62,506 nucleotides of DNA from Chloroflexota bacterium (GTDB lineage: Bacteria; Chloroflexota; Dehalococcoidia; GIF9; UBA5629): contig VGOP01000010.1 of the NCBI GenBank assembly GCA_016875875.1, forward strand, positions 1-62,506, in the 5' to 3' direction. The notes beneath the pieces were generated by a model. It saw only the letters and a program-made list of their open reading frames with translations, had not been told where the DNA came from and made no database searches. The position numbers and the translations under genes are program-made. Of this stretch, positions 8,198 through 62,506 are shown piece by piece. The first letter of the stretch is position 1. Every line of letters starts with the position of its first letter.

Positions 8198-8323
8198 ATG
8201 TCAAGCAAAGGTTTTCTTAATCTGAATCGTTTCAAGTCAAGCAAGGCAATAAAACAGCAAACGAAGCGAAGAGCAGACGACAACCGAAATAAGTCAACAA
8301 AATCTAGAAAGGGTGACAGATGA
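8198..8323 (+). CDS. possible 41-residue basic small ORF
   Basis: An ATG at 8198, 11 nt after an AGGAG, opens a 41-codon frame whose TGA overlaps the ATG of the lipoprotein gene (ATGA), as in translational coupling. The peptide is very rich in Lys, Arg, Ser, Asn and Gln and lacks a signal peptide or cysteines. It could be a real small protein, a leader ORF that couples translation of the importer, or chance. No homologue is recognised. Confidence 0.3.
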   Translation: MSSKGFLNLNRFKSSKAIKQQTKRRADDNRNKSTKSRKGDR

Positions 8324-10038
8324 AGAAATCAGGAATTTTTATAACTCTATTAATGGCCCTGCTTACTTTGACCGCAGGTTGTGCCAAGGTCGAAGTTAAA
8401 AAAGGAGGTACCTTCATACAGGGAGTTTCGGGCGGTGATGCCGAGAGTTTAAACCGGATTCTGATCAGCGATGCCACTTCCGCAAGCTATTACGAGCATA
8501 CAGTGGACTCGCTAGCCACATACGACAACAAATTCAACATCCAACTGCGCTGCTTAGCTAAAGATGTAGAGGTATCACCAGACGGCCTGGTTTACACCAT
8601 AACCATCAGGGACGACCTCAAGTGGAGCGATGGCTCGCCGGCCACCGCCGAAGACTATGTCTACACACTGAAAAACCTGATGTTCTCCGACTGGCTGAAC
8701 TATCCGTACAAAGGAGACTGGCAAGAGGAGATAAATGGAGAGAAAGTATTTGTCACACCTGAGGTAGTCAATGCCACCACATTCAAAATAACCCGCCAAA
8801 CCGTTGACCCGGAGTTCGTCTATATCATCTACGACCTGTTCCCCTACCCCAAGTATATCGCCACCAAATACGAGGGCGATGTCAAGTCCTTTACCGAAGC
8901 ACCGGAGTTCAACAACCTCACCTATACGGGAAACTTGGGACCTTACCGCTTTAAAGAATGGAACAGAAATGACAGATATGTAGTGGAAAAGAATCCTGAA
9001 TATTACCTGGGGAAGGATATCGGAGCTCCCTATTTTGACCAATACATCGTAAAACTCTTCGGCACTCCAGCCACTAGGCAAGCAGCCCTAGAAGCCGGTG
9101 ACATAACCTACACTGGAATCGAGCCAGAACAAGCCAACAGATTCAGAAATATGGGTAATATCAAAGTGTACACCATACCAAGCGGAGGTTGCACCCTGTT
9201 AGCCTTTAATCAGAGAGCTAACGGCTGGGAAGGGTTGAAGAAGAAGTCCATCAGGCAAGCCATAGCCATGTCAATAAACAAAGAGACCATCACGCAATCT
9301 ATACTCCTCGGCTTCGCCGAGCCTGCCTTCAGCTTTATCCCGTCAATATCCCCATGGTATGACAAGGAAAACACGGTCAAATATGGAATAGGAGAGCTTT
9401 ATGACAAGAGAAAAGCCACTGAGATTTTCTACCAGGAAGGCTACGGAATGAAAAAAGAAGATGGCACCATAAAGGTCACCAAAAAGGACGGTGACCTTCT
9501 TCAGCTTATCCTGGCAACTAACCAAGGTAGCAAAGTGGCCGAAGACATAGCCTTCCAAGTAAGGCGGGATCTCCTTACCTTAGGTATAGAGACGCAGATA
9601 AAGCTGGTACCATGGTCTATGCTATTGAGACAATTCATGGAGAACAAAGTACCAGGGAGTGACCAGGAACCCCGAGACAACAATGGTCCTGAAGCAGTTA
9701 GCCAGGAGGCCTGGGACATAATGCTGTTGGGCTTTGGCAGTGATGTGCTGGCACCATCCGGAAGCCGTGTCTTCTACGCCACCGATGGAGGCCTTAATTT
9801 TATGGGCTATGCTAACCCCGAAGTAGACAATTTATTCAAACAGATTAAAACAAAAGAGGCGCTAGACAAAGAGTTCCGTAAACAAATCTACGCCAAACTA
9901 TCACTTCTGTTGTCTGATGACCTGCCTGTGGACTTCCTCCTTTATCACAGATCCAACCTAGGCTTTCAGAAGAACGTCGGGGGGATAGACCCTGGCCCCA
10001 GTATAGGCTACAACTACCACTTGTGGTATTTTGAATGA
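8320..10038 (+). CDS. ABC transporter substrate-binding lipoprotein, family 5 (peptide/nickel type)
   Basis: This 572-residue extracytoplasmic binding protein starts with a lipoprotein signal (MKK, hydrophobic stretch, lipobox LTAGC), so it should be anchored through Cys21 after Lgt processing; lgt is present near 38.3 kb. SBP_bac_5 features are ATYDNKFNIQLRCLAKDVEV near residue 67, the DLKWSDGSPATAEDYVYTL segment near residue 106 and KKSIRQAIAMSINKETI near residue 310. Family members bind oligopeptides, and some bind nickel, glutathione or sugars. It heads the importer genes dppBCDF. The long stretch before the permease has a degenerate intergenic repeat. Confidence 0.9.
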   Translation: MKKSGIFITLLMALLTLTAGCAKVEVKKGGTFIQGVSGGDAESLNRILISDATSASYYEHTVDSLATYDNKFNIQLRCLAKDVEVSPDGLVYTITIRDDLKWSDGSPATAEDYVYTLKNLMFSDWLNYPYKGDWQEEINGEKVFVTPEVVNATTFKITRQTVDPEFVYIIYDLFPYPKYIATKYEGDVKSFTEAPEFNNLTYTGNLGPYRFKEWNRNDRYVVEKNPEYYLGKDIGAPYFDQYIVKLFGTPATRQAALEAGDITYTGIEPEQANRFRNMGNIKVYTIPSGGCTLLAFNQRANGWEGLKKKSIRQAIAMSINKETITQSILLGFAEPAFSFIPSISPWYDKENTVKYGIGELYDKRKATEIFYQEGYGMKKEDGTIKVTKKDGDLLQLILATNQGSKVAEDIAFQVRRDLLTLGIETQIKLVPWSMLLRQFMENKVPGSDQEPRDNNGPEAVSQEAWDIMLLGFGSDVLAPSGSRVFYATDGGLNFMGYANPEVDNLFKQIKTKEALDKEFRKQIYAKLSLLLSDDLPVDFLLYHRSNLGFQKNVGGIDPGPSIGYNYHLWYFE

Positions 10039-46883: not shown

Positions 46884-47606
46884 TCATAAAGATACAAGCT
46901 TCACGTCACCCCACATACCTATTCTATCGTCTTTGATTATGACTACGCCAACCAGCCCAGCAATAGCCTGAGCCTGTTCAATCGCCACATCAATATCGTC
47001 GGCAGTTCTAACTCTATTACCAATGGCCGTAGCTGTAGCATCAGCCAGAGTCGTGGAATGCGAAAGGACAACCACGGCATCAGCAGCACCAAAACTTAGA
47101 GAATGTCCCACAGTTCCTGAAGAAGTGCATACCCCCAAAGGCATTTCACCAGGACTTATCTCCAGAGCAATTCTGCCAGTGAAGGCAGACTCGCCGGCAT
47201 AAACACCAATCAGCCTGGGTTGTGAAATCTTCATAAAGATATCACCGCCATTTTCAACAATTACCTCTGGTGTGTGGGCAAGAAGGTCTTTGCCCACAGC
47301 CTCAGCAATAGCGCCAGCCACAGCTGCCATTGGCCCAACGCCGGCTATCTGACCAGCTTGTGCCATATCTCTAACAATAGCCGGAGCATCATCACCGACA
47401 AAACAGGGCTCCAGGCTGTGGAGGAAAAGCGGATGGCTTGTGATATACTCTTCAAGCGGCGTGCGGTTTTTGATGACTGCTGCCATGGCTTCGGCCTCGA
47501 GGTTGCTTGCCGCTCGAATATAGAGGTCAGTCTCCTTAACAGTGACATCGAAGGAAACTAAACCATCGTCTTTAATCCAGCGGCGATAGGTCCTCGGCTG
47601 GTACAT
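46884..47606 (-). CDS. UPF0280 (ApbE-like) protein of the homocysteine cluster
   Basis: This 240-residue protein of the UPF0280/COG2122 family, distantly related to ApbE, has the Ala-rich AGVGPMAAVAGAIAEAVG near residue 88, ENGGDIFMKI near 118, VCTSSGTVGHSLSFGAADAV near 158 and TLADATATAIGN near 185. In Methanosarcina a COG2122 protein works with DUF39 and NIL-ferredoxin proteins in sulfur insertion leading to homocysteine. Its ATG directly abuts the TGA of the NIL-ferredoxin gene, so co-production is certain if expressed. Confidence 0.88.
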   Translation of the reverse strand: MYQPRTYRRWIKDDGLVSFDVTVKETDLYIRAASNLEAEAMAAVIKNRTPLEEYITSHPLFLHSLEPCFVGDDAPAIVRDMAQAGQIAGVGPMAAVAGAIAEAVGKDLLAHTPEVIVENGGDIFMKISQPRLIGVYAGESAFTGRIALEISPGEMPLGVCTSSGTVGHSLSFGAADAVVVLSHSTTLADATATAIGNRVRTADDIDVAIEQAQAIAGLVGVVIIKDDRIGMWGDVKLVSL

Positions 47607-48020
47607 TCAGAAATACAGCTCCATGGCTCGAGGCGGACAGGCTTTGACACATAGCTCGCAGACAACGCACTTGTTATTGTCGAAAGTCACCTTCCGAGTC
47701 TTCGGCTCAACAGAAAAGGCTCCGGTAGGACACAAAGTAATGCAGGCGCCACAATGGGTACATCTCGATTCATTCCAAACCACATCCTGGCTCAGCGATT
47801 GAATCTTTACCCCGGTCTCAGTCAGATACTTCACCCCCTTGTCATAGCTCCTCTGCTCTCCGGCTAACTCCATGACCAAAAGCCCCTCCTCCCCAGGGGT
47901 AACTGAAGCCTTGAGAATATTAAACTCCAGGTCAAAGTCTTTCACCAATTTGTAGACTATGGGCTCATTTGTCAAACGCTTCGGAAAGTGCAAAACCAAT
48001 CTCTTCGAAACAGTAGCCAT
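47607..48020 (-). CDS. NIL-domain ferredoxin
   Basis: This 137-residue protein has a NIL domain (residues about 5-75; LVLHFPKRLTNEPIVYKLVKDFDLEFNILKASV) followed by two [4Fe-4S] motifs: CTHCGACITLCPTG near residue 88 and CVVCELCVKACPP near 118. Such proteins supply electrons to the DUF39-type homocysteine synthase in archaea and some anaerobes. It lies 15 bp after the DUF39 gene and abuts the UPF0280 gene, giving the known three-protein set. Confidence 0.92.
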   Translation of the reverse strand: MATVSKRLVLHFPKRLTNEPIVYKLVKDFDLEFNILKASVTPGEEGLLVMELAGEQRSYDKGVKYLTETGVKIQSLSQDVVWNESRCTHCGACITLCPTGAFSVEPKTRKVTFDNNKCVVCELCVKACPPRAMELYF

Positions 48021-48035
48021 ACTCTCCCTCCTTCG

Positions 48036-49241
48036 TTACGGAATCGGACGTTCCTCAAGCGGCTTAAAGACGATCCCCGATTCCACACCGGGCAAAGGTG
48101 CCACCGGCTCAGTCAGCAAGAACTCACCCTTCTTTATCCACTCCTTCAAAATGCCGGCAATTTCCACTGCTCCTGGGTAGCTGGACAGAGAAGCAGTGGG
48201 AACTTCCTGACCCTGAACTTTTATCGTTCCGCTCTTGAGCTCAGCATAGCTGATCTCAGTCAGAATGTCCGGCTTTCTTTGGGGATAAGCTTCGGCGTAG
48301 TCGACCACAGGCGCAAAAATCTCAGCATCTGTCACCAATGTGTAGCGGAGTATTTCTTCAGATAGAACAGGTATGGGTACACCGATGCCCACGGTCAAGG
48401 TGCAGCCATAACCAAGAAAGCTCGTGCCCACTAGCCATTCGGGTTTCATTTGCTTCAAATCACCGATTACGGCAAGTGTGCCGGCACCTCTTCTCGGCAC
48501 GCCATTGTCGCCTCGCAAAACACTAGGATTATGCTGTGTGCCCTGCCAGGCAACATAACCAATGCCGCCACCGAGAAATATCTTAGTGCCGATGCCGATA
48601 GTTTTATAATATGGGTCATTAAATAACGGAGAAAGTTGACCGGAAGTTGAATAATTGGCATTGCCCAGCTTCGGTTTGAGCACCCCCATGTAAGTATAAA
48701 TAATTCGGTCAGACAGATTGACCGCCACATTGTAATTCTGGTATGCATTCCTCATATTAAATAAAACTGCCTCATTCATATCCTTGATACTAATCAAGGT
48801 TTCCAGCTTCCGTCTGGGGTAGCAATCGGTGCCATAGGCAGTAGCCACCAGCCTGACATCCTTGCCGGCCACTAGCTCTTCTATTACATGTCCGCCGCCG
48901 TATCTGAACTCGCCGGGATAGATTCTATTCTTGGGGTCATCATCAGGCAAAGCCGTTGCCCCCAAGAAGACGTCCACAGCGGCTACTCCTGTATAAGCAG
49001 GAACATCATTTAAATAGACCTTGCCTCCACCGAGCTTAATCCTCGGCTTGGTATGCCCGACGTTGAAATAAGCGCCCGAGGAGCACATAGGCCCGAAGGT
49101 GCCAGTAGTTACCACATCAACTTCGTTAGCCGCCTGGCTGATACCCTTTTTCTTGGCGATATCAATTATTTCCTCAGCAGTAACTACTACTGCCTGACCC
49201 TTTTTGATTTTTTCATTAATTTCAGCAATTGTCTTTGCCAT
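48036..49241 (-). CDS. DUF39 / HcyBio-type homocysteine biosynthesis protein
   Basis: This 401-residue COG1900 protein is required, with the NIL-ferredoxin, for homocysteine formation from aspartate semialdehyde and sulfide in methanogens. Family features are TTGTFGPMCSSGAYFNVGH near residue 45 (with the conserved Cys), DVFLGATAL near 90 and GIGTKIFLGGGIGYVAWQGTQH near 212. Unlike some archaeal members it has no C-terminal CBS or ferredoxin domains; these are supplied by neighbouring genes. It has a strong GGGGGTGAGG ribosome site and leads the sulfur cluster after Thi4. Confidence 0.92.
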   Translation of the reverse strand: MAKTIAEINEKIKKGQAVVVTAEEIIDIAKKKGISQAANEVDVVTTGTFGPMCSSGAYFNVGHTKPRIKLGGGKVYLNDVPAYTGVAAVDVFLGATALPDDDPKNRIYPGEFRYGGGHVIEELVAGKDVRLVATAYGTDCYPRRKLETLISIKDMNEAVLFNMRNAYQNYNVAVNLSDRIIYTYMGVLKPKLGNANYSTSGQLSPLFNDPYYKTIGIGTKIFLGGGIGYVAWQGTQHNPSVLRGDNGVPRRGAGTLAVIGDLKQMKPEWLVGTSFLGYGCTLTVGIGVPIPVLSEEILRYTLVTDAEIFAPVVDYAEAYPQRKPDILTEISYAELKSGTIKVQGQEVPTASLSSYPGAVEIAGILKEWIKKGEFLLTEPVAPLPGVESGIVFKPLEERPIP

Positions 49242-49256
49242 ATTGCCTCACCCCCC

Positions 49257-50027
49257 CTAGCGCTTAGTTTTCTTAAGCAAATCCATAGCCAGCTCCGCAG
49301 CCTTTCTGCCCGAAAGAAGCATACCACCAAAGATGGCTCCCATCCGGGAACCACCAAAGACGGCGTTGGCTGCCATACCAGTAACCAGAAGGCCGGGACA
49401 AACCTGTCTGGTGTTTTTCACTATTTCCTTTTCGCCAACTTCAGCCCACATCGACTTCTCACCACGAACTTCCACCCCAGCTCTTGTTTTTCTGGCCACT
49501 ATGCGGCAAACCTCAGCATCATGACCCGTGGCATCTATTGCCAGCTTGGCTCTTACAGCCAGCGGGTCAACATGCAGGTTCGCCAGAGACACAGCACTCC
49601 AGTTTAGCACCAGGCCAGTTATTCTGTCATCCTGGCGAATCATAACATCCTCAACGCTCAGCAGATTGAATATCTTGACCCCGGCCTTTATGCACCGGGA
49701 GCACAGGGTTGACACCGCCTCAACGGCATCAGCAACGTAATAACCCTTTTGATACTGCTTGGCCGAGATGCCTAGCTCGTCCAGAATCTCTTTTGCCTCA
49801 CTTTGAACCACAATACGATTAAACATCATGCCACCACCCCACATGCCACCACCAACGCTTAGCTTTCTCTCAAATATAGCTACTTTCACATTGCTCTTCG
49901 CCAGGTAATAGCCAGCAACCATGCCTGACGGCCCGGCTCCGGCTATAGCTACATCCACCTCCATCGAATCGAGCAAATCTTCCAGATAACTCTCAGCTAT
50001 CGCCTTAGATATAATTACTTCATCCAT
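49257..50027 (-). CDS. thi4: Thi4-family sulfide-dependent thiazole synthase
   Basis: This FAD/NAD-dependent enzyme of about 256 residues makes the thiazole part of thiamin. It has the dinucleotide motif [18 protein letters not shown] near residue 24, [18 protein letters not shown] near 50, DATGHDAEV near 163 and [24 protein letters not shown] near the end. In the position of the yeast suicide cysteine, this protein has His (NLHVDP), the mark of the catalytic, sulfide-using Thi4 of anaerobes. Such proteins were once misnamed ribose-1,5-bisphosphate isomerase. ATG 50027 with AGAGGTAG is preferred over the TTG at 50042. Confidence 0.9.
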
Positions 50028-50072
50028 TTTTCTACCTCTCAAAACACAGCCCGGAGATAAACAGAATCACTC

Positions 50073-51762: not shown

Positions 51763-52269
51763 TCATCTTCTCTGGGGTTCACCCCACGCGCTGGAACCTG
51801 TAGGCCCAGGGCCGCTCTGCCATTCCGCAATTAAGCTCTGCCTCATTTGTATTAGCCTGGCACCAATATCGGCGGCAAGATTTTCCATGATTGTGTATCC
51901 TATATGAGGATGTTGGTGAAGCAGAGCTAGTAAATCAGTACCCCGAATACGGATTTCCTCACCATCCTCAGCACATATCGCACTGGCAGAATGATTATAT
52001 GGCGCTACCAAGGCAGACCATCCAAAGACTTCTCCCGGCAGGGCTTGATGAACCCTGACGTACTTGTTCCACGGCTTTTTAACCCAGGTCACGATATCGA
52101 CCTTGCCGCTACAGCATATATGTAGATTCGTTGCCCTGGTCCCCTCCTCCAAAATACGATCACCCTCATGTAAGGTGTGCAGGTGACAAAGCTCCGCTAT
52201 TTTATCTAAATCACTGTCAGTTAGACCTTTGAAGAGTTCAAACTCCTTCACACGTTGTACAGTAACCAT
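51763..52269 (-). CDS. cyclic-nucleotide-binding-fold protein without DNA-binding domain
   Basis: This 168-residue protein is a single cNMP-binding beta-barrel (FELFKGLTDSDLDKIAELCHLHTLHEGDRILEEGT at the start, LPGEVFGWSALVAPYNHSASA near residue 78) with the helical C-terminus of Crp proteins but no helix-turn-helix. The Arg that holds the nucleotide phosphate is His here, so cAMP binding is doubtful. It is the last gene of the minus-strand run from hdrA through kinase and response regulators, and probably a signalling partner of those. Ribosome site GGAGGG is strong. Confidence 0.85.
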   Translation of the reverse strand: MVTVQRVKEFELFKGLTDSDLDKIAELCHLHTLHEGDRILEEGTRATNLHICCSGKVDIVTWVKKPWNKYVRVHQALPGEVFGWSALVAPYNHSASAICAEDGEEIRIRGTDLLALLHQHPHIGYTIMENLAADIGARLIQMRQSLIAEWQSGPGPTGSSAWGEPQRR

Positions 52270-52348: not shown

Positions 52349-52954
52349 CTACGTTCCTGAACGAGTCCCCAACCATTCTCTATACGGGCACAGTCTTTCG
52401 GTAACAGGTAACTGTCTGAGCTCGTTGATTTCGTCTTCGCTGACAACTGCTATGGTTCCGTATCTATCATGTATATCTTGGGCAAATCCACAGCAGCTAC
52501 ATTCATAATTGTGTGTGCATAGCTGGAACGATACAGCTCCAAGTTCCAACCAGTCTTCCTTCTCTGGCAACTTTTTTTCCACTACCTCTTGCAGTGCCCC
52601 TTTGATTGTCTTTTCCAGATCCTCAACCTTGAAAGGCTTGGGCAAATATTCGAGAAGGCCTAAACGTCGTGCCTTATCTCGTGTTTCGATTGAAGGATAA
52701 GCAGTAATCATTATCCCTTTAGTCTTAGGCTTAAGGTTTTTAGCCTGCTCGAATACTTGCAGACCATCTACACCCGGCAGCCTTAGATCAAGAACCAGAA
52801 CGCCAAAGTCCTCTTTCGCGATCCTTACTAAGGCTTCTTCTCCGGTTTCAACACACTCCACATCATACCCATCATCCACCAGCCAGTCCCGCACACTTTC
52901 TCTCACCACAGCCTCATCTTCTACGAGCAGTATCTTTCCTTTCTTAGCTTCCAT
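52349..52954 (-). CDS. response regulator with Cys-rich output domain, paralogue 1
   Basis: This 201-residue protein has a receiver domain (LLVEDEAVVRESVRDWL, phospho-Asp in VLVLDLRLPGVDGL near residue 55, K in YLPKPFK near 105) and a short C-terminal domain (about 135-201) with LELGAVSFQLCTHNYECSCC, then GFAQDIHDRYGTI and ERLCPY. The five cysteines could bind metal, Fe-S or act as a redox switch. No DNA-binding or enzymatic output is seen. A similar NYxC..C segment occurs, from memory, in GcvH-like redox proteins of other anaerobes. It has a close paralogue upstream. Confidence 0.85.
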   Translation of the reverse strand: MEAKKGKILLVEDEAVVRESVRDWLVDDGYDVECVETGEEALVRIAKEDFGVLVLDLRLPGVDGLQVFEQAKNLKPKTKGIMITAYPSIETRDKARRLGLLEYLPKPFKVEDLEKTIKGALQEVVEKKLPEKEDWLELGAVSFQLCTHNYECSCCGFAQDIHDRYGTIAVVSEDEINELRQLPVTERLCPYREWLGTRSGT

Positions 52955-53078
52955 GTTTCCCCCCTTGTGAAATCTATAGAAATACTCGCTTTATCAGTAC
53001 GCTAAATATTATTTCTTTCACCTCCCTCCACTTCGATCTTACTTATTGTGTAATACGCCTCCGAACGCCTTTTTGTTG

Positions 53079-53702
53079 CTACACAGATACTAGATCAGAT
53101 CTTTCCTTCTTCACAAAATGCACTGATGTATAGCGGCACAACCTTTGACTGCCGGGTAATTGCTTAAGCTTTGCAACTTCATTCTCGCCAATTACTGATA
53201 TAGTGCCGAATCTATCCTGTATGTCCTGGGCAAACGCGCAGTGGCCGCACTCATAGTTGCGAGTGCATAATCTAAAAGATACAGCTCCGAGTTCTAGCCA
53301 GACATGCTTATCCTTTAGCTTCTTTTGTTCAACTTCGTCCAACGCTCCACTTATTATCTTTTCCAAGTCCTCAATCTTGAAAGGTTTAGGTAAATAGTCG
53401 AGAAGCCCTATTTCTTTTGCCTTTTCCAGTGTCTCCTTGGAAGGATAGGCAGTAATGATTATCCCTTTGATCTCGGGTTTTACGTCCTTAGCTTCCTCGA
53501 ATGCGTGCAAACCGTCAACTCCTGGTAGTCTTAGATCAAAAACTATAACACCGAATTCTTCCTTCTTTATTCTCTCAACGGCTTCTTCTCCAGATTCAGC
53601 AACTTCAACCTCATATCCATCACCCACTAGCCACTCCTGCAACGCCTCCCTCAACACTGTCTCATCTTCTACCAGCAGAATCTTCCTTTTTTTGACTTTC
53701 AT
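53079..53702 (-). CDS. response regulator with Cys-rich output domain, paralogue 2
   Basis: This response regulator of about 207 residues has the same plan as its downstream neighbour: receiver domain (LLVEDETVLREALQEWL, VIVFDLRLPGVDGL, YLPKPFK) and an output domain LELGAVSFRLCTRNYECGHC with AFAQDIQDRFGTI and QRLCRY. The frame extends to 53762 inside the kinase gene, but the ATG at 53702 has a GGGAG site and starts KVKKRKILLVEDE. It begins 10 bp after the kinase stop, so it is the likely cognate partner. The two paralogues probably arose by tandem duplication. Confidence 0.85.
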   Translation of the reverse strand: MKVKKRKILLVEDETVLREALQEWLVGDGYEVEVAESGEEAVERIKKEEFGVIVFDLRLPGVDGLHAFEEAKDVKPEIKGIIITAYPSKETLEKAKEIGLLDYLPKPFKIEDLEKIISGALDEVEQKKLKDKHVWLELGAVSFRLCTRNYECGHCAFAQDIQDRFGTISVIGENEVAKLKQLPGSQRLCRYTSVHFVKKERSDLVSV

Positions 53703-53712
53703 CATCTTCTCC

Positions 53713-55878
53713 CTATAAGCTGTCAACCGTGACGGCATTACCTCTTTCGGAGGTTTCCTCATGGTGTAGGGGTAAATAGATAGTAAAGGTAGCCCCCTCC
53801 CCCTCCTTACTTTGTACTTCTATTCTTCCATGGTGCCGTTGGATGATTCCATAAGATATAGCCAAACCCAGACCTACGCCCTTTACCTCATGTTTTGTGG
53901 TGAAGAAGGGTGTGAATAGCTTGCGCATATTTTCTGAAGAAATCCCACAACCTGTGTCCTGGACCTCTATCTTGAGCTGACCATTGTTAACTGAGGTGCG
54001 GAGGGTTAGCTTGCCTCCCTGAGGCATTGCCTGAATAGCGTTCAAAATAAGGTTAGTGCAGACCTGATAAAGCTGGTCAAAGTCAGCCATTAGATTAGGC
54101 AGGGAGGGCTCAAGCTCTTTTACTATTTGGATGTGCTGTAACTCAGCCGAGTGAGCAGCAAGGTCAAAGGCTCGGTTGATAACGTCGTTTAGGTTCAACT
54201 GCCGAAACGCTGGGGGCGACTGCCGAGCGAAATCAAGGAGATTTCGGATTAATTTTGTGCTGCGAGTGAGTTCTGCTTCCATTTTAGATAGGTAGCCGAG
54301 GGCAACTTCCTTGGGAATATTGTCGCCTCCTACCTTCTTGGCCAGCAATTGGGTATAGGCGAGTACACCGGAGAGAGGATTGTTGACTTCGTGAGCAATG
54401 GAGGCAGCTAACTGACCCAGCGATGTCAGTTTCTCAGCCTGGATTAGCTGCTCCTGGCTTTCCTTTAGCCGCTGATGAGACTCGCTGAGCTCTCGGTAAG
54501 CTGCACTCAATTTGTCTTGCATCTCTTTTTCTTTGGTCACATCCCTGGCAATATTCTGGAAACCCTTTAGCTTGCCGTCTTCTCTAATCAGGTTGGTGGT
54601 CAGTTTTAGAATCCTTCCGGTTTCATCTTTGCTAATCAGGCGCTGCTCGTATGGTTGTTCTACCGTTTCTCCCAAGAATAGTTTACGCCTAATTTGTCTG
54701 GCTAAACTGAGACCTTCCTCCGCCAGGAAATCTCTTACATTCATCCCTAGCAGTTCTTTGGAGCTATAGCCGGTCAATTCCTCAGTAGCTTTGTTGGCAG
54801 CTATAATATTACCATGTGAGTCATGTATCCAGATGGCATCGTGTGCATCTTCAAATATCTCGCGATACCGTCTTTCTGAGGCCAAGGCTTGTCGTGCTGC
54901 CAAACGCTCTCTTTGGTAAAGCTGGGAATTCTCAATACCAATGCCAATCTGACTACCTATGGTAGTAAGCAACTCCACTTCCTCACCCAAGAATTGTCGC
55001 GACTCACGCATAGCCCCGGCGAGAGTACCCACTACTTTCCCCTTAGATTTCAGCGGCACAATAACCTCGGCTCGCATTCCCTCTCGTCTCACTATCCCCC
55101 TAGTAAGTCTAGGGTCTTGAGCGGCATCCTCTATCAGCAGTGGTTCCCCGGTCTGGGCAACGCGGCCGTTGAAGCCCTCCCCTACCTTTAGTCCTTTTAG
55201 CCCGGCAACAAACTCCTCAGATACTTCCCGGTAGGTTATAAGCTTAAGCTCTTGCTTATCTTCGTCCAAAAGAAATATCAGGACAATATCCAAGCCCATT
55301 ACCTGCTTAATCTTATCGACGACTGCGCTTAATATATCCTCCAACTCCAAAGATTGACTGACGATGTCTGAAATCTCATTTAAGGCAGAAAGTCGTTTCT
55401 CATTACTTCTTGCGACCTGATATGCGGATTCAAGCTGCTGGTCAGCCGCCTCCAGCTTTGACAGCATTTGTTGCCGGCGCTCCCTTTCTTTTCTGAAGCG
55501 GTCAAACCACAGATTTATTAGAACGCCCAAGAGGATGACAGCAGTGGTCTCAAGCAAAGCATCAGGGAAATATTCTGAGACTAAGAAAACCCGAGGTAGC
55601 ATAATGACAGACGCCATTGCTAAGCTGACAAATCCCGCCGTCGTGCCAAAGACAAAAGCGGCGTAGCTGACCGGCACCAGAAGGAGAATACGCTCCAAAG
55701 CGTGCCGGCTGAGACCCAGAAATGAGAAGAGAGATGATGAACTGGTCGAGAGTATCTGCTGCGGGTAATACAACACTATGACAATGGCAAAGATTACTAC
55801 CACTGCCCAGAAATGGGGATTGGTTAGGATATTGAGGTGGCGACTAATCGTATGTACATCAAGATGTTTAGTATTCAT
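53713..55878 (-). CDS. membrane sensor histidine kinase (GAF-PAS-HisKA-HATPase)
   Basis: This 721-residue kinase has three or four N-terminal helices (about residues 20-125), a coiled coil, GAF (about 165-315), PAS (about 335-450), HisKA with SIAHEVNNPLSGVLAYTQLL near 493 (phospho-His) and a HATPase domain with N box NLILNAIQAM, G1 DTGCGIS and G2 GVGLGLAIS. Nothing marks the ligand; the GAF or PAS domain may bind a flavin, heme or small molecule. It overlaps the FlxA-like gene by 11 bp, so sensor and redox complex are made from one transcript. Confidence 0.93.
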   Translation of the reverse strand: MNTKHLDVHTISRHLNILTNPHFWAVVVIFAIVIVLYYPQQILSTSSSSLFSFLGLSRHALERILLLVPVSYAAFVFGTTAGFVSLAMASVIMLPRVFLVSEYFPDALLETTAVILLGVLINLWFDRFRKERERRQQMLSKLEAADQQLESAYQVARSNEKRLSALNEISDIVSQSLELEDILSAVVDKIKQVMGLDIVLIFLLDEDKQELKLITYREVSEEFVAGLKGLKVGEGFNGRVAQTGEPLLIEDAAQDPRLTRGIVRREGMRAEVIVPLKSKGKVVGTLAGAMRESRQFLGEEVELLTTIGSQIGIGIENSQLYQRERLAARQALASERRYREIFEDAHDAIWIHDSHGNIIAANKATEELTGYSSKELLGMNVRDFLAEEGLSLARQIRRKLFLGETVEQPYEQRLISKDETGRILKLTTNLIREDGKLKGFQNIARDVTKEKEMQDKLSAAYRELSESHQRLKESQEQLIQAEKLTSLGQLAASIAHEVNNPLSGVLAYTQLLAKKVGGDNIPKEVALGYLSKMEAELTRSTKLIRNLLDFARQSPPAFRQLNLNDVINRAFDLAAHSAELQHIQIVKELEPSLPNLMADFDQLYQVCTNLILNAIQAMPQGGKLTLRTSVNNGQLKIEVQDTGCGISSENMRKLFTPFFTTKHEVKGVGLGLAISYGIIQRHHGRIEVQSKEGEGATFTIYLPLHHEETSERGNAVTVDSL

Positions 55879-56740
55879 CAGATATAAAATTCCTTATCTG
55901 GGCATAGGTGAACACCGGCCCATCACGGCACACATATAAGTTTCCGATATTACATCGCCCGCACTTGCCTATTCCGCACTTCATTCTTTTTTCCAGAGTA
56001 GTTATCATTTGCCCTGGGACGAAGCCGAGTTTTTCCAGAACTGGAAAGGTCAGCCTTATCATAATGGGTGGGCCGCAAACAACGGCTATTGCCTTTTTAG
56101 CTGAAGGAGCTATTTGCTCCAATACCGCTGGGACAAAACCCTCTCTTCCCATCCAGTTCTTATCACCTTTATCAACAGTAGTTATCATGTTTATTGTTTT
56201 ATCCTGATTCCAGATATCAAGATCATACTTGAAGCACAGGTCTACAGGACTACGTGCTCCATATATTATATCTATATTTTCGTATTTATCTCTATTGTCT
56301 AATACGTTCCAGATGAGAGAGCGAAGCGGCGCTAGACCGATTCCGCCACCAACGAAAACGAGATTCTTGCCCCGCATCAGCTCAAAGGGAAAACTGTTAC
56401 CATAAGGCCCCCTGAAACCAATCTCGGTACCAATGCTGAGGCGATGCATGGCATTGGTTACCACCCCCACCCTGTTGATAGTGCACTCTAAATGGCCGTT
56501 TCTGGTAGGGCTGGAGGAAATGCAGAAGGTGGCTTCTCCTATGCCAAAGATAGAAAGTTCGGCAAATTGACCTGATTCAAAGGTAAACTCTTTACGCAGT
56601 TTCCCGTCCTTGAAATTGAAATGGAGGGTTCTGATAGAGGGCGTTTCTTCAATAATTTTGTCTATTACTACTAGATGTGGTAAATAGACATTGTCTTGGG
56701 CAAGAAGTTTTTTTCTTTGGTTAATATCAGTAATAGCCAT
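55868..56740 (-). CDS. FlxA-like FAD/NAD(P)-binding oxidoreductase subunit
   Basis: This 290-residue protein of the ferredoxin-NADP reductase fold resembles FlxA, AsrB and HydG-type subunits. FAD-site segment is ATFCISSSPTRNG near residue 70, the NAD site LVFVGGGIGLAPLRSLIWN near 127 and VVCGPPIMI near 220. The C-terminal CGIGKCGRCNIGNLYVCRDGPVF cysteines bind a [2Fe-2S] cluster. It would be the pyridine-nucleotide entry point of the HdrA/Flx complex. Ordered after the two Fe-S subunits and directly before the kinase. Confidence 0.88.
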   Translation of the reverse strand: MAITDINQRKKLLAQDNVYLPHLVVIDKIIEETPSIRTLHFNFKDGKLRKEFTFESGQFAELSIFGIGEATFCISSSPTRNGHLECTINRVGVVTNAMHRLSIGTEIGFRGPYGNSFPFELMRGKNLVFVGGGIGLAPLRSLIWNVLDNRDKYENIDIIYGARSPVDLCFKYDLDIWNQDKTINMITTVDKGDKNWMGREGFVPAVLEQIAPSAKKAIAVVCGPPIMIRLTFPVLEKLGFVPGQMITTLEKRMKCGIGKCGRCNIGNLYVCRDGPVFTYAQIRNFISDEY

Positions 56741-56769: not shown

Positions 56770-57810
56770 TTATTTCTCACTCCGAGATGTGGCACTGGCT
56801 GGTAAACTACTTAGGACTTGGCTAATATCCCAATTCACTGGACACAACCGTATACACCTGCCACAACCAGTACAGGCAGTAATGTCAAAGTTCATTGGGT
56901 AAAATTCGTATTTATGGCATACCCTTTGCCTTACCCGCCTCCATTTTTCCTCTCTCGGATTTTCCATGGGCATCTTGGTATAAAGTCTGAAACTGCAACT
57001 ATCCCACCCTCTATATCTTGCCCCTTGCTTCTTAATCAACTCATCGCAAATATCGAAACAGAAACAAGTGGGGCAAAGGAAAGTGCAGACACCACAGCTA
57101 ATACACTTGGCGGCGACTTTCTCCCAATAATCCTTGTCGCTGAAGCAAGCCTGTAACTTCTTCGCGATTTCTTTTGTATCGACCTTTTTTATCACCATGT
57201 CGGAAAGTGCTGCTTTTTCCGACTTCGCTTTAGCACCATCAGCTTTAGTGGCCTGTTTCACCAAACTGGTCGCTGCCAGCAACTCTTCACCCTTATCAGT
57301 AATTTCTTCGATTAAGAATTCATCCCCAATATCGGTGAACATCAGGTCAACATCGGCTGACTCCGTGGGTTTGAGCCCTAATGAAGTACAGAAACAGCTA
57401 TCATAAGGATTGGTGCAGCTAAGACCGATGAGCACGGTGTTCTTTCTTTTTGATACGTAGTAGGGGTCTTCACATGTCTCGGTAAAGACCTTATCTACCA
57501 TAGCTATGCCTCTGGCGTCACAGGGCCGGATGCCAAAAATAAGCTGCTTTTGCTCATCTTGCGGTATTTCTATATGGTAGCCATCTTCGTTTTTCTTGAA
57601 GCTGAACATTCTCTCCATGGAAGGGAGAAAATTAGCTTTACAGGGGATGACTGTGTTTCTATACCAATCTAAGAAGCTGACATCTATACCATCCCATCTG
57701 ACCATCTTGGCAATGTTTTCCTCTTTAAATGGAACAAACACGTTCAACCGCTGGTTCCACATGCCAAGGAGTTTAGCTATTTCTTTTTTGCCGATCTTCT
57801 TAGTGGCCAC
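56770..57810 (-). CDS. FlxB/AsrA-like Fe-S electron-transfer subunit
   Basis: This 346-residue protein has an N-terminal region like the anaerobic sulfite reductase A / hydrogenase beta family (GIRPCDARGIAMVDKVF near residue 92, a GLSCTNPYDSCFCTSLG cysteine set near 130) and two C-terminal [4Fe-4S] motifs: CISCGVCTFLCPTC near 240 and CTGCGRCIRLCPVNW near 315. It should wire electrons between the FAD/NAD subunit and HdrA. A Lys/Ala-rich linker at about 195-215 is atypical. The start is GTG 57810 after GGGGG. Confidence 0.88.
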   Translation of the reverse strand: MATKKIGKKEIAKLLGMWNQRLNVFVPFKEENIAKMVRWDGIDVSFLDWYRNTVIPCKANFLPSMERMFSFKKNEDGYHIEIPQDEQKQLIFGIRPCDARGIAMVDKVFTETCEDPYYVSKRKNTVLIGLSCTNPYDSCFCTSLGLKPTESADVDLMFTDIGDEFLIEEITDKGEELLAATSLVKQATKADGAKAKSEKAALSDMVIKKVDTKEIAKKLQACFSDKDYWEKVAAKCISCGVCTFLCPTCFCFDICDELIKKQGARYRGWDSCSFRLYTKMPMENPREEKWRRVRQRVCHKYEFYPMNFDITACTGCGRCIRLCPVNWDISQVLSSLPASATSRSEK

Positions 57811-57821
57811 CTGTCCCCCTT

Positions 57822-58784
57822 TTACATGATCAAGTCTTCGGCCTCCACAGGCTCGTAGGCCGTCATTAACGCCGGTGCATCCTTATCTATTCCTGCCTGA
57901 TAATGGAACATCTCGTCAACTAATTCGGACATCTTTTTGGACAAGCTTCTTAGCGGGATATTCTGCGGACAAACACGTTCGCACTCACCGCAGTCAGTGC
58001 ATCTTCCAGCGACATGTATATTTCTAATTACCTGAAACATGAGATTATCCTGCCACTGTGAAACGGGTGATATCCATTGCGGCTGGGACTCCTCAACAAA
58101 GCACCGCTCGCAAAAACAAGCCGGGCATACCTGACGACACGCGTAGCACCGGATGCAACGACTGAGCTGTTTTTTCCAGAATGCCCATCTCTGTTCCGGA
58201 ACCATATCCTCTAGTTGCTTAATCCTCCTCAGGCTCAACTCTTTATCACCAATCGCGTTAGTTGGTATACCCACCAGGATATCGTATTCCTGAGGGGTGG
58301 GAGACTCACAGCCGAGGCAGTGTTCAAATAAGACTTCCTTTGTGGGTAACTCTGTTTTCTGCCCGCCAATAATTACTGCTACCTTTTCTCCTTGCAGGGC
58401 AATATCATCAATTTCATCCCTGTCCTTATTTACTAACTGTTCCACCTTCGCTATATCAATCAACCCGGAGCAAGGAACGCCAATAATTACCACGTCGTCT
58501 CTACTCACCTGATTATCCTGTATGAGACTAACAACGGAGCGACTATCGCAACCTTTAGCGACTATGCCTACGCGTCCCGGTACCTCAGTTAGGAATTTAG
58601 CTAGATTATTTACTATGAACGGGTTAATTACTAAAGATGCCACCTCCTCTTTCTCTCTGGTAATCAAAGGAGTAGCGGTGAATTTCAGGCTCCCTCGGGC
58701 AAAGCCAACTATATGGTCGGCTTTCCCCTCATCTAGCAGTTTCCTAGCCTCTTTCCGTAGCTCTTGTTCCATATTACTGTCCAT
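57822..58784 (-). CDS. FlxC/FrhB-like Fe-S subunit
   Basis: This 320-residue protein has an N-terminal region similar to coenzyme F420 hydrogenase beta-type proteins (GRVGIVAKGCDSRSVVSLIQ near residue 70, VIIGVPCSGLIDIAKVE near 100, FEHCLGCESPTPQEYDI near 150). Two [4Fe-4S] motifs follow, CIRCYACRQVCPACFCERC near 210 and CTDCGECERVCPQNIP near 263. It shares its general plan with the next gene and may stem from the same ancestor. The first ATG overlaps mvhD by 11 bp; a second ATG four codons in is possible. Role in the HdrA complex is inferred from position. Confidence 0.85.
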   Translation of the reverse strand: MDSNMEQELRKEARKLLDEGKADHIVGFARGSLKFTATPLITREKEEVASLVINPFIVNNLAKFLTEVPGRVGIVAKGCDSRSVVSLIQDNQVSRDDVVIIGVPCSGLIDIAKVEQLVNKDRDEIDDIALQGEKVAVIIGGQKTELPTKEVLFEHCLGCESPTPQEYDILVGIPTNAIGDKELSLRRIKQLEDMVPEQRWAFWKKQLSRCIRCYACRQVCPACFCERCFVEESQPQWISPVSQWQDNLMFQVIRNIHVAGRCTDCGECERVCPQNIPLRSLSKKMSELVDEMFHYQAGIDKDAPALMTAYEPVEAEDLIM

Positions 58785-59226
58785 CTTCGGAGAATAATCT
58801 ATTAGGTCCCACTTCTTCTACATCTTTAACTACGGCGGCAACTACCTGGGCAAACTTCGCACCTTCTGACGCCGATACCCAGCTCGCCCTAAACCGTTCT
58901 TCCGGAATACCCATATACTCTAAGAATTTCTTGGTTAACGCAATTCTTCTTCTGGCACGGTAGTTTCCCGTTTGGTAATGGCAGTCACCGGGATGACAGC
59001 CGGACACCAAAACACCATCAAAACCCAGACGCAAACCCTTAAGGATTAACAGTGGATCAACTCTTCCCGAACACGGCACCTTCAATATTTTCACGTTGGC
59101 TGGATATTTCTTACGACCGGATCCAGCTAAATCAGCGCCGGCATAGCTACACCATTTACATAAGAACCCGACTATTCTGGGCTCCCATTCTGATTTACGT
59201 TCCATCTTATTACGCCTCGTTTCCAT
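58774..59226 (-). CDS. mvhD: MvhD/FlxD-type Fe-S subunit
   Basis: This 150-residue subunit binds a [2Fe-2S] cluster and passes electrons to HdrA in methanogen and sulfate-reducer complexes. Family cysteines are in GFLCKWCSYAGADLAG, KVPCSGRVDP and VSGCHPGDCHYQTGN. The first ATG is 26 bp from the hdrA stop. An ATG seven codons in (59205), with GAGG nine bases upstream, gives the shorter typical N-terminus. No hydrogenase subunit genes are near, so it is FlxD-like rather than part of a hydrogenase. Confidence 0.93.
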   Translation of the reverse strand: METRRNKMERKSEWEPRIVGFLCKWCSYAGADLAGSGRKKYPANVKILKVPCSGRVDPLLILKGLRLGFDGVLVSGCHPGDCHYQTGNYRARRRIALTKKFLEYMGIPEERFRASWVSASEGAKFAQVVAAVVKDVEEVGPNRLFSEDGQ

Positions 59227-59251: not shown

Positions 59252-62200
59252 TTATACAAGCATGCCTTCAATTTCCGCTACAAGCTGTTCACTCGTATAG
59301 TGTTTAAGGCTTACCGAACCACTAAAGCAACCGCCAACGCAGGCGCCGCAGCCTTTGCACAAGGCTTCATTGACACGACACACTTTCTTTTCTTCAACAA
59401 AGGTAATGGCACTATAAGGGCAGACACGCATGCAGAGCTGGCATCCGGAACAAATCTTTTCGTCGACGAAAGAAGTAGCTGTTTCAATCTCCACATTGGC
59501 CTGACCAATCATTGACAGAACCTCAGCCGCTGCCCCGGATGCTTGAGCCACGGTATCCGGAATATCCTTGGGACCCTGGCAACAACCAATCACGAAGACG
59601 CCATCAGTAGTGGTAGCTACAGGGTCTAACTTAGGATGCCTCTCCAGGAAAAAGCCGTCGGCACCTCTGCTTACGTTGAACAAACGGCTAGTATTCTGAG
59701 CATCTTTCTGCGGTTCTATAGCGGTACTCAGAATAACCATATCCGCTGGCAAACGGCATTGAAGTCCCGGGTGAATTTCCTCTTCATATTGAACAATTAG
59801 CTTGCCTTTCTCCGCAGGTGTTTCGGCTATATTCGTGACACCACTGGGACGAGCTTCAATAAATATGCTGCCCTCTCTGACAATTCGGTTGTAGAACTCC
59901 TCAAAGCCCTTACCGAAGGCTCTGATGTCAACATAGAATTCATAGGCCTGAGCCCCGGGAAGATGTTCTCTTATGAGATGGCTAAATTTCAGGGAATACA
60001 TACAACAAACACGGGAGCAGTACTCATGATAGTTCTTATCTCTGCTGCCGACGCAATGGATAATAGCTATTGTCTTAGGCTCCGAACCATCTTTAAGAAG
60101 AACGTGACCCTCAGTCGGCCCAGCAGCATTAACCATTCGTTCGAACTCGAGTGCAGTGACAACGTTGTCAAAGCGTCCGTACCCATATTCATAGACACCG
60201 CTGGGTTTAAACAAGTCATAGCCAGTAGCTACGATGATATTGCCAACTTCTACTTCAACCACCTCGTCTTTCATTTTGTGATCTATTGCCTCACGCTCAC
60301 AAACCTTGACACACTCCAGGCATTCAGAGCAAACAGCACAATTCAAACAACGTTTGGCCTCTTCGACAGCCAATTCTTCATTAAAGCCCAACTCTACTTC
60401 TGCAAAGCCCTGCCGTTTGTCCAGTTCGAGCACTGGCATAGTCTTTCGCGCCTTTATTGCTATACCTTCTTTTGAGACCTCTTTTACCCTTTCAGGGCGG
60501 GTTGGTCTGCCCTTCTTCAGGTCTATTCCCCTAAGATAATGGTCTACAGAAATAGCCGCCTCTTTACCAGCTTCGATAGCAGAAATAACATCATCTGGAC
60601 CAGACACAACGTCGCCACCGGCAAAAACACCTTCGATATTCGTCTGCAAGGTAACGGGGTCAACTGCTACAGTCGCGAAACTGGTATATTCAAGCTCCTT
60701 GGCCAGGGCTGACTTATCCACAACCTGTCCAACAGCCATGATTACATTATCAGCAGGTATATCAAATTCCGAACCTCTAATCGGTATTGGACGTCGACGC
60801 CCACTCTCGTCAGGTTCGCCCAGCTGCATCCGAATACATCGAATATGAGTTAACTGACCTTTTTCCGTCAGAATTGCTACCGGCGCTGCCAGAACATGAA
60901 TCTTCACTCCTTCATGCTCCCCCTCTTCCACCTCGGTACGAAGAGCAGGCATTTCGGCTCGAGAGCGCCGATATACTATAGTAACCTCTTCGGCTCCCAA
61001 GCGTTTAGCCACTCTGGCACTATCTACTGCCGCATTGCCACCACCGATAACTACTACGCGCTTTCCAATTTTAACCTTCCTCCCTGAGTTTACCTGTCTC
61101 AGGAAATCAAGTGAATAAGACACACCCCTGGCATCCTCATTTGGAATACCCATCTTCTGGCTCATACCAGCACCAACACCAAGGAATATGGCGTCATAAC
61201 CTTCACTAAAGACTTCCTTGAAGTCCTTCACTGGGGTGTTTGTCTTTATCTCTACTCCCAATTTTTCAATGTATCTTATTTCATTATCCAGTATTTTCTT
61301 CGGCAATCTGTATTCAGGTATAGCGTAACGCATTAGGCCGCCGGCTTTGGGCGCAGCTTCAAAGACAGTAACCCCGTATCCCATCCTCACTAGGTCATAG
61401 GCACAAGCTAAACCAGCCGGCCCAGAGCCGATGATGGCTACACTCTCTGGTTTTGTCTTTTCAACCGGAGCTACCTTTCCCTTGCCCTCCCTGAGTTCAT
61501 AGTCAGCCATAAAGCGCTTTAGATAGCGAATGGCTATTGGTTCATCAACTTTTCCTCTTTCGCAGTCAACTTCACAGGGATGGGTACAAACTCGCCCACA
61601 AACACCAGCAAACGGCTGTGTCCTTCTGAATACCTCGAGGGCTTCCTTATATTTACCCCGTGAAATAAGGGCTATGTATCCCTGTGCGTCAACCCCAGCT
61701 GGACAAGCAGTCCGACATGGCGGAGCGCCTCGCTTGTCGATGATAAAAACATTAGGAACAGCCTGAGGAAAGGGACGATATGTTGCCTTTCTTTTAGCCA
61801 ATCCCAAGTTAAACTCAGAAGGTACTTCCACCGGGCATACAATCTCACACTCAGCACAACCACTACACTTCTTAATATCTACATACCGCGCTTTCTTCCT
61901 AATTTTGACTTTGAAATTACCAATATAGCCCGATACCCCTTCAACTTCGCTGTAGCTCATTACATCAATGTTGGGATGCTGTCCTACCAGTGTCATCTTG
62001 GGAGTAAGTATACAGGCTGAGCAATCAAGGGTAGGAAACGTCTTGTCCAGTTGTGCCATGTGCCCACCAATGCTGGGAGTTCTTTCTACCAGATAAACTT
62101 TATGCCCTGAATCAGCAATTTCCAGTGCCGCCTGGATGCCGGCAATACCACCGCCTACCACCAGGGTATCAGGATTAATAGGAACCTGCCTGACCTCCAG

Positions 62201-62506
62201 GGCGTCATGATAATAAATCCGACTTACCGCAGCGCTCACCAGTGCCTTGGCTTTACCCGTAGCCCCATCATGGTCTTCGGTAACCCATGAGCACTGTTCA
62301 CGAATATTCGCCATTTGAAACAGGTAGGGATTAATCCCGGCATCCTGACAAACACGTCGGAATGTGGGCTCATGCAGTGTCGGCGAGCAAGAAGCCACAA
62401 TTATACGATTGAGACCTGCTGTTTTGATATCCTCTTTAATCAGGTTTTGCCCCGGCTCAGAGCACATGAACTTGTAGTCGCGAGCTACTGCTACTGAATC
62501 TAAATC
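59252..62506 (-). CDS. hdrA: HdrA with inserted GltD-like NAD(P)H module (5' end beyond window)
   Basis: The frame stays open to the window edge, and the 13 codons upstream of the first ATG read like HdrA (DSVAVARDYKF), so the true start is outside. At least 1,084 residues: HdrA FAD domain (VVGGGIAGIQAALEIADSG, CSACILTPKM; numbering from the internal ATG, about residues 100-200), ferredoxin motif CSGCAECEIVCPV, a GltD/NfnB-like insertion of about 400 residues (CRTACPAGVDAQGY, AIIGSGPAGLACAYDL, VVIGGGNAAVDSARVA), a CLNCAVCSECLEC cluster, the second HdrA half and two C-terminal [4Fe-4S] motifs. HdrA is the bifurcating flavin centre of heterodisulfide-type complexes. hdrB and hdrC are not in view. 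Confidence 0.92.
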   Translation of the reverse strand, partial: DLDSVAVARDYKFMCSEPGQNLIKEDIKTAGLNRIIVASCSPTLHEPTFRRVCQDAGINPYLFQMANIREQCSWVTEDHDGATGKAKALVSAAVSRIYYHDALEVRQVPINPDTLVVGGGIAGIQAALEIADSGHKVYLVERTPSIGGHMAQLDKTFPTLDCSACILTPKMTLVGQHPNIDVMSYSEVEGVSGYIGNFKVKIRKKARYVDIKKCSGCAECEIVCPVEVPSEFNLGLAKRKATYRPFPQAVPNVFIIDKRGAPPCRTACPAGVDAQGYIALISRGKYKEALEVFRRTQPFAGVCGRVCTHPCEVDCERGKVDEPIAIRYLKRFMADYELREGKGKVAPVEKTKPESVAIIGSGPAGLACAYDLVRMGYGVTVFEAAPKAGGLMRYAIPEYRLPKKILDNEIRYIEKLGVEIKTNTPVKDFKEVFSEGYDAIFLGVGAGMSQKMGIPNEDARGVSYSLDFLRQVNSGRKVKIGKRVVVIGGGNAAVDSARVAKRLGAEEVTIVYRRSRAEMPALRTEVEEGEHEGVKIHVLAAPVAILTEKGQLTHIRCIRMQLGEPDESGRRRPIPIRGSEFDIPADNVIMAVGQVVDKSALAKELEYTSFATVAVDPVTLQTNIEGVFAGGDVVSGPDDVISAIEAGKEAAISVDHYLRGIDLKKGRPTRPERVKEVSKEGIAIKARKTMPVLELDKRQGFAEVELGFNEELAVEEAKRCLNCAVCSECLECVKVCEREAIDHKMKDEVVEVEVGNIIVATGYDLFKPSGVYEYGYGRFDNVVTALEFERMVNAAGPTEGHVLLKDGSEPKTIAIIHCVGSRDKNYHEYCSRVCCMYSLKFSHLIREHLPGAQAYEFYVDIRAFGKGFEEFYNRIVREGSIFIEARPSGVTNIAETPAEKGKLIVQYEEEIHPGLQCRLPADMVILSTAIEPQKDAQNTSRLFNVSRGADGFFLERHPKLDPVATTTDGVFVIGCCQGPKDIPDTVAQASGAAAEVLSMIGQANVEIETATSFVDEKICSGCQLCMRVCPYSAITFVEEKKVCRVNEALCKGCGACVGGCFSGSVSLKHYTSEQLVAEIEGMLV

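Follow-up and report, generated by a model that had tools for sequence, protein, structure and literature searches.

Two paralogous response regulators of a Dehalococcoidia genome, RR1 and RR2, were found to end in a short tail with four conserved cysteines, which is a shortened variant of a larger eight-Cys module. The domain appears to be new, and both proteins are of a known kind, i.e. response regulators with an unusual effector. With about even chances, we read RR1 and RR2 as phosphorylation-switched, metal-binding protein-contact modules for redox metabolism. Both genes stand at the end of an operon in the window (the whole stretch of DNA analyzed, 62,506 nucleotides), in which the following features were located:

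59252 to 62467, minus strand: HdrA-like protein with a Fer4_20/Pyr_redox_2 (GltD-like) part
58774 to 59226, minus strand: FlpD/MvhD protein
57822 to 58784, minus strand: 4Fe-4S protein, FlxC-like by position and domains
56770 to 57810, minus strand: Fer4_22 protein, FlxB-like by domains
55868 to 56740, minus strand: NAD-binding DHODB-type Fe-S reductase subunit, FlxA-like by domains
53713 to 55878, minus strand: histidine kinase with N-terminal hydrophobic segments, GAF, PAS, HisKA and HATPase_c, the presumed partner of the regulators
53079 to 53702, minus strand: RR1, response regulator of 207 aa, receiver (phosphoacceptor D56, T84, K106) and four-Cys tail
53130 to 53300, minus strand: Cys module of RR1, W135 to Y191, with C146, C152, C155 and C189
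52349 to 52954, minus strand: RR2, paralogue of RR1, 201 aa, receiver and four-Cys tail
52382 to 52552, minus strand: Cys module of RR2, with a final LCPY and one additional Cys

The operon order is HdrA-like protein, FlpD, two 4Fe-4S proteins, DHODB-type reductase, kinase, RR1 and RR2. The kinase gene overlaps the preceding gene by 11 nt and stops 10 nt ahead of RR1, for which the ATG at 53702 was taken as the start codon; the RR1 frame opens at 53762, yet a start there would overlap the kinase gene. Promoter and terminator scans gave results no better than those for shuffled sequence. The first seven genes occur in the same order at loci L032, L033 and L035 and in part at L034, and the order kinase, then regulator is kept at L032, L034 and L035 and, with the kinase as two frames, at L033. 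At the latter locus, a receiver-only protein without Cys tail (8300-8677) follows the short regulator and is itself followed by a second kinase-like frame. Domains and order fit a FlxABCD-HdrABC operon, of which HdrB and HdrC were not identified in the window; by its domains we take the operon to resemble FlxABCD-Hdr modules, and the assignment of the subunits is presumptive. A 168-aa protein with a cyclic-nucleotide-binding domain and without a detected DNA-binding domain is encoded 79 nt past RR2 (51763-52269, minus strand). Genes of the HcyBio, NIL/4Fe-4S and Thi4 families lie in a row at 46884-50042 (minus strand), and a 240-aa protein among them has no Pfam match at 1e-5.

The receiver domain PF00072 was assigned to RR1 and RR2 by Pfam (9.2e-25 and 1.7e-26, respectively), and a fold comparison with the PDB matched the receivers. 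D56 is present in both sequences, and E12, D13, T84 and K106 are conserved in the alignment of the short relatives; both proteins have the acidic pocket, the phosphoacceptor Asp, the Thr and the Lys of a response regulator. They share with PF00072 response regulators the complete receiver and a cognate-type kinase gene immediately upstream, but differ in having the four-Cys module and no known DNA-binding, enzymatic or other output. Pfam and the other domain searches detected no DNA-binding output domain in RR1 or RR2, and the GCV_H domain (PF01597) is absent from both according to Pfam. RR1 and RR2 are 66% identical over 191 aa compared. A recent tandem duplication is unsupported, as the nearest row to RR1 is L032 and not RR2 in a tree with weak support at most inner branches.

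The initial annotation had reported a segment LELGAVSF..LCT.NYEC..C.FAQDI.DR.GTI in both proteins, and the segment is present in both, with the ORFs located as described there. The LC.Y assigned to the end of the proteins is likewise found in RR1 and RR2; it is not only a terminus, since in longer relatives it opens a second copy of the unit. A first search of 294 genomes of the window's class yielded short relatives and longer regulators with this second Cys copy. A wider scan of 84,980 species gave at least 79 loci. Scans of this kind work with short patterns and a capped output (80 of 117 matches), so that the counts are lower bounds; most relatives come from metagenome-assembled genomes. 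The architectures are as follows:

L032 to L041: short regulators of the window type, one of them incomplete
Most of L042 to L061: long regulators with receiver, TPR-like linker and two Cys units
Most of L062 to L110: GcvH-like proteins with two Cys units at the front
L013: HoxU-like Fe-S protein with one Cys unit at the C-terminus
L055: 93-aa frame with one Cys unit
L045: histidine kinase with TPR and two units in its N-terminal part

The module consists of two units, each C-x12-C-x5-C-x2-C. All eight Cys (C20, C33, C39, C42, C89, C102, C108 and C111 of the first row, numbered C1 to C8) are invariant in the 61-row alignment of the two-unit forms. The short forms, all 12 of them, keep C2 to C5 and lack C1 and C6 to C8 together; C2, C3 and C4 belong to unit 1, and C5 is the Cys of CRY. 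RR1 and RR2 retain C2 to C5 alone and are a shortened variant of the full module. A few loci encode two units without a visible receiver. GcvH-like relatives, which the initial annotation had mentioned, do exist, as GCV_H was found in 40 of the 61 module rows; where the lipoyl position could be read in GcvH-like relatives with these Cys, it has no Lys (32 of 32 rows). The module occurs in at least four protein architectures, and the curated libraries have no entry for this domain in any of them. The tail had been called an output domain; a C-terminal Cys domain on a receiver is indeed present, and the output role is presumptive, considering that the L045 kinase bears the module at its input end. 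The records of L036 and L053 are titled Deltaproteobacteria and Eisenbacteria, respectively, and both loci resemble those of Dehalococcoidia. The L036 contig matches G256, a genome of the same class as the window. L036 and L053 may be mislabeled or stray contigs.

All four Cys (C146, C152, C155 and C189 in RR1 numbering) are retained in 12 of 12 short relatives, so that they do not vary in these homologs, and they are also invariant across 13 aligned tails including distant long forms. Mean pairwise identity among the short forms amounts to 81% in the tail but drops to 71% in the receiver and to 35% in the linker. Since the tail is conserved beyond the receiver and its Cys are constrained, the earlier view of Cys conservation as a sign of function is supported.

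Neither single proteins nor profiles gave an accepted match for the Cys tail in Pfam, NCBIfam or the PDB sequences, in which matches were sub-threshold or at chance level; this agrees with the proposal of an undescribed domain. Members scanned singly had no accepted family across the Cys part either. Confident PDB fold matches comprised receiver-containing proteins and, for the model of a GcvH-like protein, H-proteins, and nothing else. The CHY zinc finger (PF05495) was rejected as the identity of the module: RR1 and RR2 have no hit, and the weak profile matches in the Cys region of 35 of the 61 members (E up to 1) stay well under the curated cut-off, with 19.2 bits scored among the relatives compared to a cut-off of 31.3 bits. 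No published description of the module came up in a literature library that lacks most subscription journals, whether GcvH-like Cys proteins were searched for or archaemetzincin in combination with GcvH or Hdr.

The long-form loci typically encode a divergent sigma-54 and a sigma-54 activator, along with a kinase in which one domain is [FeFe]-hydrogenase-like, and these loci adjoin HdrA and FlpD or genes of NuoE, NuoF and HoxU type. The divergent sigma-54 of Dehalococcoidia (~370 aa) adjoins a histidine kinase, the sensor part of which is [FeFe]-hydrogenase-like (Fe_hyd_lg_C); examples of this pairing are L042 3459-4571, L057 1303-3294 and equivalents. The long Cys regulators of Dehalococcoidia (L042-L058) resemble RR1 and RR2 in the receiver, the homologous Cys module and the redox genes alongside, but differ in the TPR-like linker, the two complete units and the sigma-54 and activator nearby. 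At L036-L039, a short regulator adjoins a long one. At L007, a divergent short form lies between an AIRS_C protein, presumably HypE-like, and a HycI-type maturation protease. At L045 (10852-11850), a HoxU-like 2Fe-2S/4Fe-4S protein with a fused receiver is encoded downstream from NuoE- and NuoF-like genes. The usual order in Desulfobacterota is PAS/GAF kinase, sigma-54 activator, M54 archaemetzincin-type peptidase and eight-Cys GcvH-like protein, and HdrA is often found in these loci (L062-L110; e.g. L071, L090, L092). The Desulfobacterota GcvH-like proteins have a homologous Cys module, and theirs also adjoins a kinase, in addition to the activator; unlike them, RR1 and RR2 have no GCV_H and a shortened module.

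No sigma-54 and no sigma-54 activator were found in the window genome, which is 96.75% complete and in which above-noise matches to the unit are two, i.e. those in RR1 and RR2. A sigma-54-dependent mechanism was rejected for this genome. Among genomes with the short form alone in a Flx/Hdr-like operon, sigma-54 was absent from G000, G268, G651, G650, G653 and G654 as far as these incomplete genomes extend (G268 and G651 have a contig in common), which argues that the short form is independent of sigma-54 here. Of the genomes that encode a full-length module regulator, eight were tested, and all of these have sigma-54. G652 encodes a two-unit protein without visible receiver and a short form, and sigma-54 was not found in it. 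DVU2394 of Desulfovibrio vulgaris is a sigma-54-type regulator. That species has an operon of the FlxABCD-HdrABC type with two-component control (DVU2394, DVU2405-2397; PMC3333781). The window shares with it the connection of two-component genes to an Hdr-type redox operon, but the window genome has no sigma-54, and HdrB and HdrC were not recognized.

In the AlphaFold model, the receiver has high confidence and the Cys region moderate confidence (about 62-75). Residues 136-142 and 191-198 were predicted as strands and residues 145 and 188 as bridges, and a helix begins immediately past C155. In the model of the GcvH-like protein, residues in a strand or bridge coincide with the first two Cys of both units or directly precede them. 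Judging from these secondary-structure strings, C5 may stand in for C1 in the short form. The pattern suggests that C2 to C5 of the short forms make up one four-Cys metal site, with C146, C152 and C155 of unit 1 and C189, which would be the first Cys of a complete unit 2; the joint loss of C1 and C6 to C8 would be expected for such a site. The metal would most likely be Zn, and an Fe-S cluster is less favored. A site within one unit is also possible, as the HoxU-like tail of L013 has four Cys (C1-C4) inside one unit.

A tentative alternative attributes to the tail a thiol switch or an Fe-S cluster that is oxygen- or redox-labile, by which the regulator itself would sense redox conditions and integrate them with the kinase signal. 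It is in line with the anaerobic hosts and Fe-S-rich operons, with the [FeFe]-hydrogenase-like kinase of the long-form loci and with the N-terminal two-unit module of the L045 kinase, according to which the module may sense instead of signal. However, a structural Zn site would likewise be compatible with the C-x5-C-x2-C spacing and a helix behind the CxxC, and the sub-threshold profile matches are zinc fingers.

According to the preferred reading, i.e. the phosphorylation-switched contact module, the adjacent GAF/PAS kinase would phosphorylate D56. Phosphorylation would then alter the contact of the metal-bound tail with a protein partner, which would be made or broken. The partner would probably be a subunit of the upstream-encoded Flx/Hdr-like electron-transfer complex or its regulator, and the effector would be a small four-Cys metal site, not a DNA-binding domain. 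This reading is based on the conservation of the tail and its Cys in short and two-unit forms, the joint Cys loss, the model and the receiver residues; on the conserved kinase and Flx/Hdr-like gene order in a genome without sigma-54 and activator; and on module relatives that adjoin, or are fused with, genes of HdrA, of NuoE/NuoF/HoxU type or of hydrogenase maturation. Points against it are the moderate confidence of the model in the Cys region, the four Cys inside one unit of the HoxU-like tail, the module at the input end of a kinase, and RR2, which is without the last strand of the other short forms.

It is rather doubtful that receiver and Cys tail are a regulatory subunit attached directly to the electron-transfer complex, altering its activity and not gene expression. 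The missing DNA-binding domain, the conserved operon with Flx/Hdr-like genes and the Cys unit terminating the HoxU-like subunit of L013 fit this proposal, and the receiver-HoxU fusion at L045 leaves room for direct control of an enzyme complex instead of transcription; the long-form relatives with their sigma-54 and activator point to transcription at those loci. That the two-unit module has decayed in the short forms and left a tail without function is highly improbable, and this was rejected on grounds of conservation: C1 and most of unit 2 are missing and RR2 has lost the last strand, but identity is higher in the tail than in the receiver, none of the four Cys varies, and short and long forms occur side by side at L036-L039.

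Probably, the module connects signalling with the redox enzymes of anaerobic metabolism. Conceivably, although we regard this as unlikely, the C-x12-C-x5-C-x2-C units form a hitherto undescribed metal-binding module that is exchanged among response regulators, histidine kinases, GcvH-like proteins and hydrogenase-type subunits; it would sense the redox state of Hdr/Flx/Nuo-type electron-transfer complexes and inform two-component signalling. Little is understood about how anaerobes tune their Hdr-type, electron-bifurcating and hydrogenase-like complexes to the redox state. A module that is small, conserved and joins two-component signalling to such operons in two phyla is a concrete handle on this question, and it would give a name to a domain for which the curated libraries have none.
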